Assembly: GCA_029378245.1 (NCBI GenBank)
Contig: JARKIF010000043.1
Coordinates: 398,546 to 462,545 of the forward strand
Direction: 5' to 3'
Length of the DNA: 64,000 bases
DNA from: Roridomyces roridus
Taxonomy: Eukaryota > Basidiomycota > Agaricomycetes > Agaricales > Mycenaceae
Shown here: piece after piece, positions 27,620-40,717 of the stretch
Numbering within the stretch: position 1 is the stretch's first letter
Layout: the number at the start of each line of letters is the position of its first letter
Made by a program: the position numbers and the translations under genes
The notes under the pieces: generated by a model
The model's database searches: none
Seen by the model: the letters and a program-made list of their open reading frames with translations, nothing else
What the model was told of the DNA's origin: nothing

Positions 27620-29573
27620 TTATAATATTAGATGCGATTCCTGCAGGTGAAATCGCATGAGCATGTCCTTGATTCCTGCAAGGACGTATTTAGTCGATTT
27701 GGGGTCCTGGAAAAACAATCCACGTCAGTAACCGTGACTTGGCAAATCGACAGAGGTACGGACAATGGCATTCGTGAGATGACAGTAGAATATCCGAGAC
27801 GTGGGCGAGTTTTGCTTTAGTATCGCGTCTGGAGTAAAAGGTCAGCCAGCGTTGACGACGACGAATGAGACATCTCGCACTGAATTGCTTTCGTAAATCT
27901 GGGAGAAGAAAATTAGCTCCAGCCAATAGGAGGAGTGGGAGATCGGCCTACATCGAGAAGCACTGTCAAAGTCATTAGGCCTCCGACCATACGAATCAAC
28001 AAAGTCGGAGAGTCGAATGCCCGACGCAAGCTTGGCATGCATGATGTCCACCTTGTTCAGGAAGAGGATCATGTTGGTCTGCTGTAACAGCTTGTTGGAG
28101 ACCACGGACGTCCATAACTTGAACGAATCCGCCTGAGCGGAGATTAAGCCAAGACCATCAGCAGACCAGGGTCACTCACAAGTCGATTGACAGTTGGGTC
28201 TTCCACCAACGTCTGGTCAAAGGCCGATATAGGTGCCAGGAATATGATGGCGTCCATATCGTCAAAGTAAGACACCCAGGCAGCACGCTAAAAGCTCCGT
28301 GAGCTAAAGAAGGACGGACAAAGAGGAATACGTACTAATGAGCGTGTGCCTCCAACGTCGAAGATGCGGAAATCTCGGCTCATACCACCAGTGGGATCTG
28401 AGAGCCGCATTCGGTGCTCCGACACCCCGAGCGTTTTTAGTCGCGCTCGTAGGATGTGGTCGTCGGTGGGGATGTATCGTCGTGACGTAACCTCGTCTAT
28501 CGAGTCCAGAAAGCTAGGCCTATTAACGAGAATGCCGTGGATATGAAAAAAGGGTACTCACAAGCCGCCCTGCTCCTGCAATCGTATAGACTGCTTCTCT
28601 AATATTGCCTGGACCGTCGGATGCTCCCATAACCGCTTCATGTCCTCCCGGCGGTCATGAAGCACAACCCCCGGATCTTTGGGGTTATCCCAATCTACCA
28701 GGTGGTCGGAATCGAAACTATCCCTGGCCGGGTCTGAGAACGCTCTCTTCCACGCCACGGTCGAATTGACTGCGAGCTCCCGCCGCCGTAAAGAGACGGG
28801 CCGCTCCGTCGGCTCCACTTCCGTGGACCCGGGCAGTGACAGCCGTTGCATGAGATCCTTCTCGATGTCGATGAGACCGAGGAGGCGCGTTCGTATACTG
28901 GTCAGTTCCGCGTCGATGCGAAAAGACTCGTGCGAGGACATGCTAGACCGCGCACTCGGTGGTCGTTCAGAGCCATTTTGTTGTGACCGAAAGAGCGCTT
29001 CCAGGATGATATGAATCGATCGAACGAGGTTCAGCTGGATTATCGCCCGCCATGAGGCTCGCTCGGCTCGAAACGTCTACATCATAATATGATAAATTCA
29101 ATTCTGCGCGCATGGAAGAAAGTTTTCCGACTCACTTTTGGCTCGTACAGGAGCTGGAAATCTGGGGGGCGATGGTCAGCATCCGCCGAAATGCTGGGGC
29201 TCGGGGCGCCTTACTTTTCAGTGTAGTAGATTTGCCTAGAGTTTAGCATTTTAGCGTCCGGATGGTACGGAATGGGGCAAAGGTGCAGACCTGATTCGCT
29301 CTGGCCTATAGTCGCGGGGGTCAGACGTGGCATCGAGGGGGGGCAGAAAGCCGAGCACGCACCCAACAGCAGAATTTTGACAGGTTTCGGCCGTTTCTTC
29401 TCGTGCAGCTGCTCCCGGGACAGCTCAGCGTCGATGGCGTCCGAGACTTGCTTCGCGGCCCTCTCCTTGTGTAAACGTCGTTCCTGCTCTTGCGGGGACT
29501 CGTTCTGGGGCGGTGCGATGGCGTTCGCGATGGGATCGTCCTCCATGAACCGTCGAGGTACTTTGGTGGGCAT
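27620..29573 (-). CDS. Atypical heterotrimeric G-protein alpha subunit
   Basis: Eleven exons: 29363-29573, 29291-29305, 29215-29235, 29136-29161, 28562-29076, 28336-28513, 28180-28287, 27952-28132, 27872-27898, 27764-27828 and 27620-27706 (477 aa). It binds GTP and presumably relays receptor signals at the membrane. G1 is LLLGQSESGKSTTLKNFQ (71-79). Switch I is ILRARLKTLGV (catalytic Arg287, Thr290). Switch II is FDVGGTRSL, G4 is LFLNKVD (384-387). The TCAT region is FYCHLTNAIDPKST and the C-terminal helix is YVLAGIKDMLMRFHLQESHL. Departures from canonical: Thr319 replaces the catalytic Gln, there is no MG myristoylation start, there is an insert of roughly 90 residues in the helical domain, and no Cys lies near the C-terminus. 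Exons 2 and 3 are only 15 and 21 bp and encode the P-loop. Confidence 0.93.
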
Positions 29574-29923: not shown

Positions 29924-32497
29924 ATGTCTCTGGAAAATACTGGCAGCGCTTTGGCACTTGTTGGAGCTGTCGTCGACGACATCGCAGTCCGTTTCTGCTC
30001 TGATAGGAATTTCCGCCGCGGCCCACACCGCATAATCTTGTTGGACGAGGAAGAGCTCACAAGCATCTCCACCGAACAACTCGAGAAATCTGCCAACCTC
30101 GATGTTGTGAACGTCATCTCCTTGGGAGTGGGAGGAACCACGGACGTCTTTTTCGTTGTCATCGTCTGGGCTGCCGGTCAACTCTTCAGAAAGCAGGCAG
30201 GCCTTCCGCCGAAACAATTCCATATTCTCCTGTCTGAGCAGGACGACCCCGACTTGGACAAGGGAGTGGCATCACTCTTGCCTGGCCAGTTCCCCGCTGC
30301 CCCGTCAGTGGATCTGCTCGACCATCTGGCCTTCACACTCCACCTTTCGGGATCTTTCCAGGAGGCGCAGCGCTATTCCGCCAGACTTATTTCCGCATAT
30401 CCAGAGTCCCATCGCGGTTTCCTACGCCTCGCAGATGCCTCCGTCTCATCGCACGAGTACAAACTCGGCATGCTGGCATATGGCCGTGCTTTTGAGCGTA
30501 ACACGGACGAGCGCGTCAAGCAGTACTGCCTCAAGAAGCTCTGCGAATGCGCCAAGCACACCGAATGGGGTTCCGTAATGCACAAAGCCGAGCTCACTCA
30601 GCTTCGCCCGGGAATCGCAGACATCATGCTCGTGCCGTGGTCTTCTGACCTGCGCAATGCGGTCAGAGACTTGGAATTCGTTCCCACATATCAGCCCGAG
30701 CCGCGCCTTCCATTGTCCATCCCCACAGGCCACCAGCTTCCCCGGTGGTTTAGATGGCTCGTTCCGTACCACCTTGCCATCATGTCGACGCCGAAGCACG
30801 AGGAGGACATTGATGCGCTCTGCTCGCCGCATCTGGGCATTCGGCACGTCCTCACCCTCACCGAGGAAGAGCCTCTGCCGAAGAAATGGTTCCATGGCAA
30901 GCCCATCACAAACACATTCCTGCCCGTCCCCAACTACTGCCCGCCCTCGATCGAGCAGATGGACATAATCATGCGGTTATTTGACGACACCGCTAACCTC
31001 CCGCTGCTCGTTCATTGCGGGGGCGGCAAGGGCCGCGCAGGCACCGTTGCAGCGTGCTACCTCGCCGCCTACGGTTTTCGTATCCCCAATTCCGACCAAG
31101 ATCATCCAGAGATGGCCGCACCGGACGCCATCGCCAGTCTACGCCTCATTCGGCCGGATAGCCTGGAAACCTCTCGCCAGGAAGCCTTTGTATCGACTTG
31201 GTGCAGTACGATCTGGAAACGGCAGTCTATATACCCCGACCTGCCCTCCGAGCCGCTACCGTGTGCACCTGAGATCACGGGCAAGCTGGACAAGACCAAC
31301 GACCTCTTCGTTCTAGTGGGTCTCCCTGGGTCCGGCAAGTCTTGGTTCTCGCAGGCGCTGCGCGTACGTGACCCGAGGGGTTGGAAGCGCATTTCGCAGG
31401 ACGATGCTGGGAGCAGGGCGGCGTGCGAAAATGAGATTGGGCACGCTAGTGGTCGTGTGTTGTTGGATAGGTGCAACACTGCTGCTACTGACCGCAAAAT
31501 CTGGCTCGCCTTGGCGTCCAATTGGGCCGTTTCGCCAGTTTGTATCTGGTTTGATGTGCGTCTCTCAATTTCTCTCTCGTCGGGCTATTGATAATTTCTC
31601 TAGTACGACAAGGAACTTTGCGAATCGCGGGCTCAAATGCGTGCGGGGCATCCGACGTTGCCGCCCGGTAATCGTGTCCGCAGCGCCGTCGAGCAAATGC
31701 ACAAAGCACTCGTCCCGCCTAAACTGAATGAAGGTTTCAAAGCCATCGTGCACATTAAATCGTTTGCCGCTGCCGAGGAACTGGTCCAACGCCTTTCGCC
31801 CCCGATCGACATTTACAAATTCCCTCGTACTCCACACCTCATTAATCTGGGAGCAGCGACCTCGGACGACGTCGTATCGTCCGAGGTCCCGTCGGCTGCT
31901 CCAGGCGACCACGTCGTCATCACCGAAAAGGTCGACGGTGCGAATATGGGATTTTGGCTCTCTCCCACACGCGAACTCCGTATACAAAATCGCTCGCATT
32001 ACATTACCCCGGCCTCGCACGCGCAATTCAAAAAACTGGGCTTGTGGGTGGACACGCACCGGGATGCGCTGATGCGTATTTTGGGGAGAGACAAGCATTT
32101 TGCGAGTCGCTATATCTTGTACGGTGAATGGCTTGCTGTGACGCATTCGATTCCGTACTCGAAGCTGCCAGATCGGTTCATGGCGTTTGATTTGTTCGAC
32201 CGCAGTTTGGAGAGTTGGGCGGATCGCAAGACGCTTGGTGCGTTGCTTGAAGGGACGGGCATTGAGATGGTGCCGGTGTTGCATGAGGGTGTTATGCCGT
32301 CCGAGGGTGAGTTGCGGGGGATGGTGCAGCTGCCGTCAAAGTTTTGGGACGGGCGTATCGAGGGAATCTACGTCAAGGTTGAGCGGGGTGGGCAGGTTGT
32401 CTCGCGCGGGAAGGTCGTGCGACCGGATTTTATAGCGGGCAACGAGCATTGGACCAAGGGTAATTTGAGGCTGAATGAATTCGTGCGACCTGATTAG
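29924..32497 (+). CDS. Multi-domain RNA repair protein: 2H-like / helical linker / DSP phosphatase / polynucleotide kinase / RNA ligase
   Basis: Exons 29924-31555 and 31604-32497, 841 aa. Residues 1-100 resemble a 2H phosphoesterase (GPHRIILL and KQFHILLS, 2H motifs with the second catalytic Thr/Ser replaced). Residues about 120-230 are helical repeats (HLAFTLHLSGSFQEAQRYSA). Residues about 285-390 are a dual-specificity phosphatase with signature VHCGGGKGRAGT (Cys365, Arg371). Residues about 460-545 are a P-loop kinase (VLVGLPGSGKSWFS, Lys472; RISQDD; LLDRCN). Residues about 600-841 are an ATP-dependent RNA ligase: motif I TEKVDGANMGF (Lys653), a following NRSHY, motif III LYGEWLA, motif IV IEGIYVKVE and motif V RGKVVRPDF. 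Together these could heal and seal cut RNA, for example tRNA anticodon-loop breaks. That role is inference. The intron sits inside the kinase module. Adenosine kinase starts 50 bp downstream. Confidence 0.92.
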
Positions 32498-32547
32498 AGT
32501 AGAAATTTTATCGCTCCATCAATCTTTCTCTTCATCTCACCACCACC

Positions 32548-33775
32548 ATGTCTTACGAATTGTTCTGCATTGGAAACCCGTTGCTGGACATGCAGGTCAC
32601 CAACGGGGAGGCTCTGTTGGCCAAGTACGACCTCAAGGCCGACGACGCGATTCTGGCTGAGGAAAAGCACGATCCGATGTGGGTTCGCCGATTGTCCCTC
32701 AAGTTTAATCTGAAGCGATCGCAGCTACGCGGAGCTGGTGAAGGAACACAAAGTCACCTATGTTGCAGGAGGTGCCTCGCAGAACGCGGCGCGTGGAGCT
32801 GCTGTACGTCTCTGCACCCCGGAACGCGATGACCATTCTCATTCCATTTTTTTCACAGTACGTTCTCCCACCAAACTCTGTCGTGTACACCGGTTGTGTG
32901 GGCGACGATGATCTCGCAGAACAGCTCAAGGCTGCCAACAAGCGTGAGGGTCTGCGCGACTTGTACCAGGTCAAGAAGGGCGAGAAGACCGGCGCGTGTG
33001 CTGTCGTTATTACTGGGCACAACCGGTCGCTGGTAACGACACTCCGTTCGGCTGAGAAGTGGGACAAATCTCACCTCGAGTCGGCCGAGGTCGTGCCTTT
33101 GGTCGAGGGAGCCAAAGTCTTCTACGTGGAGGGCTACTTTTTGACGCACGGCACCGAGACTATCGCTCAACTCAGCCAAAAAGCCTCGGCTGCATCCAAA
33201 GTCAGTGTGCAATCCTCTCTTGCCAGCTCAAGGTGCTGACTGTTCCTAGGTCTTTGCTCTCAATTTCTCCGCTCCCTTCATCCCCCAATTCTTCGGTTCG
33301 CAACTGCAGCAAATCATTCCCCACGTCGACATCATCATCTGCAATGAAGCCGAAGCCGAGGCATGGGCAAACGCCAACGGGCACCCGGAGCCCAAAAACA
33401 TCGCTGCTATCGCCAGCTCCATTGCAGGCCTCCCTAAATCCAATGCCTCGCGCCCACGCACGGTCATCGTCACGCAAGGCTCCGAGCCCACCGTCCTTGT
33501 GACCTCGGACAAGCCGGACAGCCCCAAGACGTTTGGCGTGCATGTGCTCTCGAAGGAGCTCATCGTCGACACCAACGGTGCGGGTGACGCGTTCGCTGGC
33601 GGTTTCCTCGGTGCCTACGTTGCTGGCAAGTCTATTGACGAGGCCGTTGAGGCTGGTCATAAACTTGCGGGTATTTCTATCCAGCAGGTACGTCTCTTGT
33701 CTTCTCTCGAGGCCCTTTGTTGACGTCCTGCAGGTCGGTCCGCAATACGCGTGGCCCAAAGTCTCCGTTCTCTGA
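32548..33775 (+). CDS. ADO1: Adenosine kinase
   Basis: Phosphorylates adenosine to AMP, recycling adenosine from the S-adenosylmethionine cycle. Exons 32548-32678, 32716-32803, 32859-33200, 33250-33687 and 33734-33775 give 346 aa, the usual length. PfkB-fold landmarks: LFCIGNPLLDMQV at the N-terminus, YVAGGASQNAARGAA (adenosine-binding GGxxQN), YVEGYFLTHG, NFSAPFIPQFF, and the catalytic DTNGAGDAFAGGFLGAY with Asp300 as base. The first intron is only 37 bp and its donor (AT|GTGGGT) was chosen because it alone gives PIDRSYAELVKEH. The last exon is 42 bp. Downstream is the right arm of the CorA inverted duplication. Confidence 0.95.
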
Positions 33776-36083: not shown

Positions 36084-39000
36084 ATGCCGAATCTCTTTGC
36101 AAAGGGCGCGAAGTGGCTCAAGCCTAAGCTCAGTATGTTTGCTCAAGTCCTGTTGTCCTCAAGTACTAGGCACTAATATGAGTGACTAGACCGTAACAGC
36201 AAAGTGCCTTCTTCAAAAGACAATCCTTTGCTGCCAGACAACACAAACATAGGCGGGGTCCAACCTCTCAGAACATCCAGTGAACAGCTCACAATTGCAG
36301 AGTTGCATCCAGTGCCCACTCCTGATACAACTGCTGCAGATGTGACAACCACAGAGGATGTGGTGACCACTGGTGTTGCTGTCGCCCTCAGCCTCCTTGG
36401 CAGCATTGCCACCATCATCAATGAGGTCCCACTCATTGCCCCGGTGGCAGCCTTGGCATCAGAAATCTTGAAAAAATATAAAGTATGTGCCTGGATAAGC
36501 ATAAGATTTCATTACAAATTAATTTTTCTCCAGGAGGGAAGAAATATGGTTTCTCAATATCACACCCTCAGTACCAAGGTTGCAGAATTGAGCCAGGACG
36601 TTTGCCGCATGGCTTTAAAGATGCAAGAGACAGATAGCCTCATCCTTATGTGGCAGCTCAAGCCAGACCTTGATGCATACACCAGGTCTTTTCTTTGTTT
36701 TTCACCCAGAACTGTCTTTCACCACCCAAGTTAGATCATTGACCCGCGTTTCTGATTACCTCAAGCAGTATGAAAATACTTCGCTGTTGCTTCGTGCTCC
36801 TGTGGCCGAGGATTTTATTGCAGGGTTTGCTTCACTCACACATGAATTGGAATCTTTGGGGGCAACATTCCGAGTAAAGGAATCACTTTTATTGCAGGTG
36901 TTCATTGCTAAATTGAGATATTCTAGAGCCATCGATTGGTAGATCTTGCAATTAACCAAGCAAAGGCCGGACCACAATTGGATGTCCTCCACAAGATAGG
37001 GTTAGTAGTGGTCTGCACCACAAACCTGTTTAACACTCAATTTTCTCTTCAATCAGGCTCAGGACAACAGTGGAGACCTGGCTACATGTAATGTCAAACA
37101 GCAAGGATAAACATGGAGAGATAGCAGAGCAACACACCCTTGGAACTGGCCTTTGGATTTTCAAAAGAAATGATTTTACCATCTGGCAAAAAAATCCAGG
37201 ATCACTTTGGATTCATGGACCATGTAGGACCACTTCCTTCATTTTGCTTTCAAGTTGAGGATCTGACATCTCTCTGGAAATAGCTGGTTCTGGAAAAAGT
37301 GTATTGAGGTATTTTGATTTCTTTTGTTCTTCATCCTCACTTGACACTTTTGTAGCTTCTCTGTGATTGATGCGCTGCTGGCATATCAGCGACTCTACAA
37401 CAGCCAGAATAAGTCAAAGACTATAGGAGTTGCATTCTTCTATTTTGATTTCAAGAACAAAAGAAGTCACCAGGTGTTGGAAGCACTTCAGGATTTAATA
37501 TTGCAGCTTTCAGCACAGTCTCCACATCCATATCAAACTCTCCATCAGTTGTATGTGGAGCTCAATGATGGACGCACTTTACCTACATATGAAAACCTCC
37601 TCAAGGTTCTCAAGAACCTACTACAGGAGCTTGGGCAAACATATGTTGTTCTTGATGCACTTGATGAGTGCCAAGAGCCAGAGAAACTGGTGAAACTGGT
37701 GATGGAAATGCAGACCTGGCCAGTTCCACTGCACTTCATGATCACCTCACAAGAGCGAAACATTTTCAACAACAAGTTTAGAGCTCTGCCAACCATTGAA
37801 TTGTCTCCAGGTTTTACATCTGAAGACATCCATCTCTTTGTCTCCCATGAATTGCACTCCAGCATGAAGCTAGAAGTGTGGGCTACTCAGCCAAATGTTG
37901 TCCAAAAGATTGTGCAGAAAAGCAGTGGAATGTGTGTTTTCATTATATCTAGATGATTAATTGTTAATAACCTCTATGCAGGTTCCGCCTTGCTGCTTGT
38001 TTGCTGAGTGAGCTTTCCAAACGAAGAGCAACCCCAAGTGCATTGGATGATGTTCTGGCCAATTTTCCAAATGAGCTTTTCGACATTTATAGTCGCTGGC
38101 TGGATTCAATCCACAAATCTGAATTCATTTATGCACAAGCAGTTCTGCAGTGGATTCTGTATAACCAATCTGGAAGGATGACCCTGGATAGCCTTGCAAA
38201 AAGGATTTCATTCGATTTTCCAGAAGCAACCTATCATATATACAAGCCGGCAGAGTACATGACAAACAAGCAGACCATCCCACAGTGGCTGGAAGGATTG
38301 GTGACATTGGATTATTCAGGTTCCTTGACTCAGACAAGCCCACAAGTATATCTTGCACATGCCTCAGTCCAAGACTACCTGCTCAGCCCAGAGTTTGAGC
38401 AAAGGTTTCATTGCAACATGTGGGCAGCAAGTGGGCACACATTTATTGCGCAAACATGCATAGGTTACCTGATCCATCTGGCACATCATCCTCTTGAAGT
38501 GGCACAAGATGTTGATAAATTTGGTGAATATGCAGAACATTATTGGATGGACCACGTGAACAAGGCAGATGGCAGGGAAATGCTGTTTAGTGGAGCAATG
38601 CAACTGGTCCAGGAACATAGCGTGGAGTACAATATGTTGTTGCAGCTCAGGGCCCAACGGACAGGAACAGATGACTTTCCTCCACCGCTACATTATTGTT
38701 GTTATGGCAACTATATTAGCGGAGTACGCGCCTTAGTCACAGACAGCAATATTGAAATCAGACATAACGGAATTACCCCTCTGGAACTTGCAGCTGCCTC
38801 TGGCAAACCTGATCTTGTCCGATTACTGCTGGACAGAGGGGCAATCAGGAGTTCCATGGACAGCAATCTTGGAATACAAGCTGGTGCAGCTGGCTTGATG
38901 GACAGAAATACTTTGCTAGTTCTGCTGCAGAATGGTTGTGGAATCAATGCGGAAGGTATGGAGATACTAGTCATTAAATATATATCTAGAATGACTTTTG

Positions 39001-40717
39001 AGCTGCAGGTGGCGCATATGGTACACCACTTCAAGAGGCTTCTCGACGGGGGGATTTTCAGCTTGTGAAGCTTCTTGTTGAAATGGGAGCCAATATCCAT
39101 GCACGGGGTACAGATTTTGTCAATGTCCAGCCACATAATCTGATACCTTGGAAGGCAATGGCTATGGAACAGCACTAGAAGTGGCTGCTTTCAGCGGGCA
39201 GCTGGGCATGGTTGCATTTCTTATTGGTGGAACATTGACAATGACAGGCAAGCAATAATGTCATCATTCATATTGTTTTGAAACCGGGAACTTTACAAAG
39301 ATCAATTTGAATCCATCTCATTGCCACACCACATTGATGTTCAACAGCTAAGTATGAATTCCTACCATCTTGCTGGCAATACATTTTCTCAGATATTGCT
39401 GTAGGCACCGGTTATAGAGCACTCCAGGCAGGAGCACTTGGGGGATGGCTTGATATTGTTCAATGTCTCCTTGAGTATGGGGCTCCAGTGTCTGCTGATG
39501 GTAAGTTGCTTCTGGAACAATCTCAGTGTACCTGAGCTGTATCTTCAGATATCCATGGTCCAACACCTCTTCAAGCAGCACTATATGGTGGTCATGTTCA
39601 GATTGCCCAGTTGCTGTTGGACAGAAAAGCAGATGTGAATGCCCATGGTGAGTGTTGTATTCTTGTCTAAGCTCTAGTGTCTTTGGTCCTCATATAGTTC
39701 CCATAGGCTGTGACTATCCATCCGCACTCCAGGCAGCTTTATATGGTGGACATATAGATATCTCAATGGAGATACTTAAAGAGGGTGCTGATGTGAATGC
39801 ACTGTGTGAGAATCTCTTCTAAAAACTTGAATATTCAATTATTGATCAACTCACTATCTAGATGGAAAATATCCAGCAGCATTGCAATCTGCTGTATATG
39901 GGGGACACATTGATATGGCATATCAGCTGCTTGCGAAGGGTGCAGACATCAATGCTCAAGGTAAGCTTCTACTGTTTGTGGGAATGATCAAGCTCTTGAA
40001 TTATATCTTGAAGGGGGTAAATGGCCAACAGCACTGAAGTTAGCAAAAACTGGTGGTCATACTCAACTTGTCAAGGATATTTTCACAATGGGGGGGCAAG
40101 TCAAGTCTAGTAAAGGTAAGCTCAAAAAGTACTTCTAGATGTTCCAAATTTTATTTTCGTCTTCAGGCCGCAAGAGGATGATGCCCCCACATATCATAAC
40201 ACAAGAAACACCTACTGTGGTTGATCTCATGGGCAGCCCCAGACCTTACGTGGGCCCATTCCCGCTCCCATTTGCAGTTGGTGGTGGTGGTGGTGACGGG
40301 ATAGTAGGTGGACCAGGTGGGAGAGGCATACTAGGAGGCCAGGGGGGCAAAGGGGGGCGGGGATATCAGATTCGGCAGTCAGCGGGGTATTCCATGCCCT
40401 CTAACACATTCGGTCAGCCAGGCGGAGACGCAACATTTGACTGGAAGTCCAGTGATGATAGAATTCTGAGTGGTGCAACAGGGGGCGATGGTGGTGATTC
40501 CTACTGTGCTGGTGGAGCAGGTGGAATGGGGAGTGAGCCTTATGCACGTCGCACAACCAAAGATTTTGGCAACTCTGGGATTCAGGAGCTAAGAGGAGGC
40601 GTTGGGGGATATGGTGGAAATTCAAGTCATGGTGTGGGTGGTAGTGGTGGAATTGGCCATGCTGTCAGGTTTGGAGTGCGTCGACACCGACGCCGGGGAA
40701 CACAGCACCGGCGCTGA
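36084..40717 (+). CDS. NACHT-ankyrin NLR-type STAND protein with glycine-rich C-terminal tail
   Basis: Many-exon gene. The N-terminus (MPNLFAKGAKWLKPKL...LLGSIATIINEVPLIAPVAA) carries helical bundles. The NACHT domain starts with Walker A (SLWIHGP + SGSGKSVL, on a 25-bp exon 37284-37308), then GVAFFYFDFKN, Walker B TYVVLDALDEC, HFMITSQER and the winged-helix region (FPNELFDIYSRWLDSI, YLAHASVQDYLLS). From about 38690 there are at least seven ankyrin repeats, such as GITPLELAAASGKPDLVRLL, GPTPLQAALYGGHVQIAQLL and YPAALQSAVYGGHIDMAYQL. Most of the later ones sit on their own exon. The last exon (40166-40717) encodes a Gly-rich tail (GGGGGDGIVGGPGGRGILGG) ending in basic RRHRRRGTQHRR. Proteins of this class act in non-self recognition or programmed cell death. 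No N-terminal effector domain is recognised. Confidence 0.85.

Follow-up and report, generated by a model that had tools for sequence, protein, structure and literature searches.

Introduction

The fungal tRNA ligase Trl1 is a single-chain RNA healing and sealing enzyme whose domains follow the order ligase, kinase and CPD, the CPD domain being of the 2H type, and the 2'-phosphate scar of Trl1 is removed by Tpt1. In systems of the phage T4 type these tasks are divided over separate proteins, Pnkp and Rnl2, with a HAD 3'-phosphatase. HAD phosphatases (HAD_SAK_1 and HAD_SAK_2) are also carried by other 'Swiss Army Knife' (SAK) proteins, the families of which were reportedly introduced by Burroughs and Aravind in 2016. 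According to the accessible part of PMC6333775, Trl1 leaves a 2'-phosphate, and the accessible part of PMC7824862 describes how jumbo phages divide these tasks, with HAD phosphatases acting on linear phosphates and 2H proteins on cyclic ends. Here, we describe a protein of Roridomyces roridus (Mycenaceae) that is encoded in a window of 64,000 nucleotides (contig JARKIF010000043.1, positions 398,546 to 462,545) and combines a 2H domain, a dual specificity phosphatase (DSP), a kinase and an RNA ligase in one chain.

The window protein shares the PTP-SAK and 2H-SAK domains with other SAK proteins and has them in one chain with a kinase and a ligase of family PF09414. In contrast to the HAD-bearing SAK proteins, no HAD family was listed for it and its 2H site is eroded. 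From Trl1 it differs in the order of the domains, in the ligase family and in its DSP, which Trl1 lacks; indeed, the families of the Trl1 ligase (PF09511) and CPD (PF08302) were unlisted for the window protein at E-values up to 1. The PNK-like kinase and the Rnl2-like nucleotidyltransferase fold are common to the window protein and the T4-type pair, but the former has a DSP and is a single chain. Compared with human VHZ/DUSP23, to our knowledge a protein without kinase or ligase, Asp65 is replaced by Asn337. Compared with the jumbo-phage systems, as far as the available text of PMC7824862 describes them, the tasks are divided alike, with the DSP in the place of the HAD phosphatase.

The earlier note on this DNA could not confirm that the arrangement had been characterised. 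Indeed, no experimental study of a SAK-type protein was found in the literature searched, which took in few subscription papers. The arrangement itself, however, is already on record, because Pfam names the DSP and 2H domains after the 'Swiss Army Knife' proteins. Judged by its sequence, the window protein is thus a SAK-type protein already recognised by Pfam domain names, and not a new kind.

Results and Discussion

A five-part protein encoded by a single gene

As the earlier note had proposed, one gene with one small intron at positions 29924-32497 encodes 841 amino acids, and its coordinates, frame and splice are all correct. Two frame-keeping GT..AG pairs were found, and the chosen one is the pair that yields 841 residues; all residue numbers refer to this spliced product. 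Over 100% of its length, the product is 100% identical to the annotated R. roridus protein P0001, which NCBI names 'ATP dependent DNA ligase [Roridomyces roridus]'. Misleading database names, namely DNA ligase, dual specificity phosphatase and tyrosine phosphatase, are common among the homologues.

Profiles and a structure model (pLDDT 90) together give the domain order 2H, TPR-like helices, VHZ-like DSP, PNKP-like kinase and Rnl2-like ligase (Table 1). The DSP, kinase and ligase that the note had read from motifs were assigned both by sequence families and by fold. The Pfam matches were PTP-SAK (PF22784; 2e-56, 190.7 bits against a cut-off of 27), 2H-SAK (PF22547; 4.6e-11, 43.5 bits against a cut-off of 27), RNA_ligase (PF09414; 5.9e-32, over its cut-off) and, for the kinase part, AAA_33 (4.5e-11, over its cut-off). 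Since four Pfam families each score above their own cut-off, the motifs are not due to chance. The TPR_14 match was sub-threshold (E-value of 0.0031, 18.5 versus 23.5 bits), and the structure model shows eight helices at residues 129-248. The motifs cited from the letters (CX5R, P-loop, DRCN and the ligase set) are all present in the protein.

Conservation was assessed in 112 homologues of 820-1340 amino acids, taken from the best 120 of 596 matches after 8 had been dropped by length. Most of the 120 homologues listed have the same precomputed domain set as the window protein, and the single-chain layout recurs in many fungal homologues, the same chain being found across many Agaricomycetes. 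Residues C365, R371, E415, Q419, K472, D493, D515, R553, R557, K653, E719, E797 and K814 are invariant (112/112), and D740 is the same in 110/112. A search for stand-alone 2H-TPR proteins, with candidates of about 143-455 amino acids, revealed no independent module among its 10 matches. All 10 had 2H-SAK, 4 also had PTP-SAK, and their contigs measured 1.4-23 kb; we read these short proteins as partial gene calls.

Table 1. Features of the SAK gene and its product in the window.
Feature	Positions	Strand	Basis or remark
Exon 1, residues 1-544	29924..31555	+	open frame, splice fit, identity to P0001
N-terminal 2H phosphoesterase domain, ~residues 1-118, catalytically eroded	29924..30277	+	
Former HxT motif 1, residues 36-38 (R-I-I)	30029..30037	+	motif pair intact in 93/112 homologues
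Former HxT motif 2, residues 100-102 (H-I-L; His kept, Thr lost)	30221..30229	+	homologue alignment
TPR-like helices, residues 129-248	30308..30667	+	sub-threshold TPR_14; helices in model
DSP/PTP phosphatase domain PTP-SAK, residues 273-423	30740..31192	+	
Asn337, at VHZ Asp65	30932..30934	+	alignment to 4erc; N in 110/112 and 15/15
Phosphate-binding loop HCGGGKGRAGT, residues 364-374 (C365, R371)	31013..31045	+	C and R 112/112
Glu415, at VHZ Glu134	31166..31168	+	alignment to 4erc; E in 112/112
PNKP-like 5'-OH kinase domain, residues 458-606, intron inside	31295..31789	+	
P-loop GLPGSGKS, residues 466-473	31319..31342	+	K472 112/112
Intron, 48 nt, GTGCGT...CTCTAG (GT..AG)	31556..31603	+	matches annotated protein
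Exon 2, residues 545-841 + stop	31604..32497	+	open frame, splice fit
Rnl2-like RNA ligase (nucleotidyltransferase core), residues 608-841	31793..32494	+	
Lys653, predicted AMP-accepting lysine of KVDG (653-656)	31928..31930	+	K 112/112

The catalytic residues of phosphatase, kinase and ligase

The nearest solved fold of the DSP domain in the structure search was VHZ, whose numbering (Asp65, Glu134) we base on what we take to be its nucleophile, Cys95. Of the features of VHZ/DUSP23-type enzymes, the CX5R loop and the Q-loop Glu are present and the acid-loop Asp is absent. Among the 112 homologues, the acid-loop column holds Asn in 110, Asp in one and a gap in one. In a wider set from fungi, oomycetes, rotifers and other sources, Asn occupies this position in 15/15 proteins and the Glu is invariant. 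Because Asn replaces Asp in nearly all proteins while the Glu never changes, a fixed reliance on Glu415 seems likely. No entry for PIR1/DUSP11 was among the 50 structure matches listed, a negative that rules nothing out.

The kinase has its DRCN at residues 515-518. All nucleotidyltransferase motifs I-V are present in the ligase (KVDG, NR, GEW, EGIYVKVE and KVVR), with invariant key residues; NR lies at 673-674, YGEW at 717-720, EGIYVKVE at 797-804 and RGKVVRPDF at 812-820. Structure-model matches of the ligase end at residues 820-826 of 841, and no further domain of the kind that T4 Rnl2 has at its C-terminus was seen, no separate search having been aimed at it. The NCBIfam Rnl2 equivalog TIGR02307 gave an E-value of 0.0068 and 16 bits against a cut-off of 197.15, and since this cut-off was not reached we call the ligase 'Rnl2-like' only. 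No DNA-ligase family appeared in the Pfam or NCBIfam scans of the window protein.

Repeated erosion of the 2H domain

The earlier note had read the 2H motifs as HRII and HILL, each without its Thr/Ser, and had suggested a sensor rather than an enzyme. The loss of Thr/Ser in both motifs stands. However, by alignment motif 1 is R36-x-I38, with H35 falling in the Tyr column of PYHIT and not in that of the catalytic His, so that three of the four catalytic residues are gone and not two: of R36, I38, H100 and L102, only H100 is retained. Both HxT/S motifs are intact in 93/112 homologues, that is in 7 of the 18 from the Mycena group and in 86 of the 94 others. Coprinopsis cinerea P0061 is one homologue with an intact 2H domain. 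The Mycena group, defined by names, comprises P0001-P0021 without three that fell outside the length range; Mycena floridula P0029 was counted among the others because the core tree placed it apart from Mycena. A sensor by design throughout the family was not borne out, given that 86 of the 94 homologues outside the Mycena group keep an intact pair, and a family-wide pseudo-2H was ruled out by the intact motifs in 93/112. As read from these alignments, the catalytic loss is local and occurred several times. On a quick tree from which the 2H columns had been left out, parsimony required at least 11 changes between the intact and broken states, at least 4 of them forced by well-supported branches.

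In the 19 broken-site homologues, E44, G68, G70, W82, Q86 and R89 are kept in 18-19/19, while H36 is kept in 8/19, T38 in 7/19, K42 in 5/19, T102 in 6/19, H109 in 4/19 and H100 in 13/19. That the former positions persist while catalytic residues and their neighbours disappear indicates that the active site was lost and the domain core retained. The 2H domain of Roridomyces is, on its residues, probably dead. Rather than having merely decayed, the domain may have been kept to gate the other activities as a sensor of RNA ends or a scaffold, but we consider this rather unlikely. Such a role would fit the preservation of the six structural positions beside the loss of most catalytic ones. It fits less well with the retention of H100 in 13 of the 19 proteins and with the lower similarity of the region, which is consistent with relaxed constraint: identity to the intact panel is 0.31-0.39 in the most eroded proteins and 0.44 in the window protein, versus 0.52 within the panel.

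Relatives in fungi, oomycetes, rotifers, bacteria and viruses

Relatives were sought with a kinase-ligase query that covers proteins of about 220-700 amino acids, the best 120 of 721 matches being listed; given this range, longer 2H-bearing relatives in other lineages would be missed. Among the matches listed were proteins from Agaricomycetes, Tremellomycetes (Kwoniella, Cutaneotrichosporon), Dothideomycetes (Elsinoe, Aureobasidium), oomycetes (Phytophthora, Globisporangium) and bdelloid rotifers (Adineta steineri, Rotaria sordida, Didymodactylos carnosus), where the class names, except those of Roridomyces and Adineta, are the ones we presume to apply. PTP-SAK, AAA_33 and RNA_ligase were above cut-off in all 10 core proteins scanned, which came from other fungi, oomycetes, rotifers and further sources. 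At E-values up to 0.01, 2H-SAK was found in 0/10 of them, which is no proof of its absence from these lineages, as several of the proteins start at an inner Met or in the helices and are perhaps incomplete models; the Adineta and Rotaria proteins begin just ahead of the phosphatase. Among the 120 relatives listed, 2H-SAK was noted for P0156, P0231 and P0232. Judging from predicted domains, oomycetes, Dothideomycetes and bdelloid rotifers have proteins that combine DSP, kinase and ligase and in which no 2H domain was detected.

A tree of 84 ligase domains (13 chosen SAK, 40 of 80 bacterial and 31 of 80 viral) unites the SAK ligases in a single group (SH-aLRT 98). Within it, two rotifer and four agaricomycete proteins join (96), apart from two oomycete proteins (98), the four agaricomycete ligases alone having a support of only 37. 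The three named rotifers share a clade with six other sequences in a longer core tree (100), in which the agaricomycete Clavulina groups with the oomycetes (85). These trees would fit a transfer from a basidiomycete-like source into rotifers, with direction and donor being our reading of them, but such a simple story leaves the placement of Clavulina unexplained. Kwoniella mangroviensis P0135, encoded on a contig of 3.16 Mb, is nested within the Agaricomycetes beside Leucocoprinus and Macrolepiota (97), as a result of either transfer or contamination.

The prokaryotic and viral survey took in the fetched stretches around the best 80 of at least 542 bacterial and the best 80 of 92 viral relatives. 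A DSP was found at 0/80 bacterial and 0/80 viral loci in these stretches, which does not amount to its absence. All 80 bacterial relatives had the ligase match, with an adjoining kinase match in 1/80. All 80 viral loci had the ligase match as well, and a kinase-like open reading frame (ORF) at E-values up to 0.01 was present in 28/80, some of these being weak, some on near-duplicate contigs, and all without a chance control. The single bacterial case, from Myxococcales (L035:4968-6922), has, after a ligase homologue, an ORF that combines an HD-like motif, recognised by eye, with a PNK-like kinase. It resembles what we take to be the HD-Pnk systems with a ligase in bacteria such as Runella, with an HD-type domain and not a DSP, and in two genes.

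Other RNA-repair genes of R. roridus

In the assembly that contains the window (90.8 Mb in 501 contigs), a profile search detected Trl1-type ligase (PF09511) and CPD (PF08302) matches together on three contigs, with near-equal matches on C118 and C442 and a third on C334, and Tpt1-type matches on four contigs. Because these domains are encoded elsewhere, the SAK protein is probably not the tRNA-splicing ligase of this genome. 2H-SAK occurs once, in the SAK gene; the multiple Trl1 and Tpt1 matches, as compared to this single one, perhaps reflect retained haplotypes. PTP-SAK had eight matches in the genome, with the SAK gene as the best (3.3e-56) and the next at 2.3e-8. A different contig carries a match to a Cpd1-like CPDase, and the ORF concerned has HIT and HMS motifs recognised by eye. 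RtcB gave 0 matches in the genome, with 9/14 controls positive, and HAD_SAK_1 and HAD_SAK_2 profiles gave 0 matches, a result that carries no information because the controls likewise gave 0. A second, weaker RNA_ligase match at C1:1734667-1735104 (E-value of 6.1e-6, 32.3 bits, over cut-off) has one in-frame stop and showed no match to the SAK ligase profile at an E-value of 0.001.

Proposed function

The domains, conservation, predicted fold, gene structure and distribution of the SAK protein are established, whereas we infer every reaction, the order of reactions, the RNA substrate and the triggering damage. The earlier note had proposed repair of RNA cut by ribotoxins or stress nucleases, and RNA healing and sealing is indeed the best reading, supported by the DSP, kinase and ligase folds in one chain. 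The protein is probably a scarless healing-and-sealing enzyme for 5'-OH and phosphate ends. In such a scheme, an ancestral 2H domain would open the 2',3'-cyclic phosphate, and the VHZ-like DSP would strip the remaining 2'- or 3'-phosphate via a Cys365-phosphate intermediate, with Glu415 taking the part of general acid that Asp usually plays. The PNK-like domain would phosphorylate the 5'-OH end, and the Rnl2-like ligase, through Lys653-AMP, would join the 3'-OH to the 5'-phosphate without leaving a 2'-phosphate scar, the helical region serving as a putative scaffold. In Roridomyces, cyclic ends could be opened in trans by a Cpd1-like enzyme or the CPD domain of Trl1, since the genome has matches for both at other loci; alternatively, the substrates may carry linear phosphates. 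Repair of ribotoxin damage is a plausible, putative task.

Several points weigh against this interpretation. DSP/PTP enzymes are mainly protein, lipid and 5'-RNA phosphatases, and work on 2'- or 3'-ends of RNA is a leap for a DSP domain, in which the loss of the acid-loop Asp could moreover mean weak phosphatase activity. The broken 2H site may prevent the window protein from healing cyclic ends unaided. In addition, the NCBIfam equivalog models for Rnl2 and PNK score far under their cut-offs, and the NCBI name is that of a DNA ligase. An ordinary DNA ligase, which has this name in its favour, is nevertheless extremely improbable, as the profile and structure matches of the ligase are RNA ligases and the scans contained no DNA-ligase family; the database name was ruled out on profiles and fold. 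A second tRNA-splicing or unfolded-protein-response ligase, redundant with Trl1, would explain why the chemical tasks equal those of Trl1 and why the protein is conserved in many Agaricomycetes. However, Trl1 ligase and CPD domains as well as Tpt1 have matches elsewhere in the genome, the ligase matches PF09414 with PF09511 unlisted, and relatives occur in distant lineages, which makes this redundancy very unlikely. A variant of Trl1 was likewise ruled out, by the ligase family and by the Trl1 domains elsewhere in the genome.

The role of the DSP leaves somewhat more room for debate. Instead of healing 3' ends, it might trim 5'-tri- or diphosphate ends of primary transcripts or viral RNA for the ligase, or act as a protein switch. 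The DSP superfamily includes RNA 5'-phosphatases, among them PIR1/DUSP11, which trims 5'-triphosphate and diphosphate RNA ends; the acid-loop change suggests altered chemistry; and the 10/10 scanned core proteins are without a detected 2H partner. However, the presence of a kinase in the chain points to 5'-OH ends, for which a 5'-phosphatase is not needed, and VHZ is the nearest solved fold. On balance, 5'-trimming or a switch seems quite unlikely.

A possible link of scarless healing and sealing to rotifer biology rests on published expression studies. The accessible part of PMC11258130 reports that horizontally acquired RNA ligases of bdelloid rotifers are strongly induced by a fungal pathogen and not by desiccation, proposes ribotoxin damage as the cause, and includes PF09414 in its trees. 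Two such ligases are induced by radiation, as stated in the available portion of PMC10809525. The rotifer relatives of the SAK protein may be linked to these ligases, as far as those texts go. However, the same part of PMC11258130 states that the induced ligases match those of bacteria or phages best, which speaks against a fungal-type SAK gene as the main induced rotifer ligase. A joint reading would make the SAK DSPs one-carboxylate phosphatases (Asp to Asn) of 2'/3'-RNA ends that enable scarless repair beside Trl1. The core would have crossed kingdom borders to reach oomycetes and bdelloid rotifers and may there be one of the acquired ligases that fungal attack or radiation induces, and the dead 2H domain of the Mycena group would have become an RNA-end gate after several losses. 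Taken as a whole, this combination is unlikely to hold in all its parts. The titles and abstracts of the literature searched, again with few subscription papers, mention neither the acid-loop substitution, nor the repeated 2H loss, nor the rotifer link, nor a DSP-fold enzyme on RNA 3' ends.

Neighbouring genes

A PfkB-family (adenosine-kinase-like) gene lies on the same strand at 32498-33723, with an apparent ATG at 32548, 50 nt past the stop of the SAK gene. The models deposited for Mycena maculata P0003 and Cytidiella melzeri P0102 combine the SAK protein and a PfkB domain in one chain, and as both do so, the adjacency may be conserved between distant mushrooms. A divergent upstream ORF on the minus strand (28558-29076) has a sub-threshold G-protein alpha match (PF00503, 5.2e-7), and NLR-like exons at 37345-39068 encode an NPHP3_N domain (4.1e-20) followed by ankyrin repeats. 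PADLOC returned no match for the window protein.

Implications

If the proposed function is correct, mushrooms would run two parallel RNA-sealing routes, a scarring one through Trl1 and Tpt1 and a scarless one through the SAK protein, and a DSP-fold enzyme would work on RNA 3' ends. The natural series of proteins with an intact 2H domain, with a broken one, and with the core lacking a detected 2H domain provides ready material on the role of each module.
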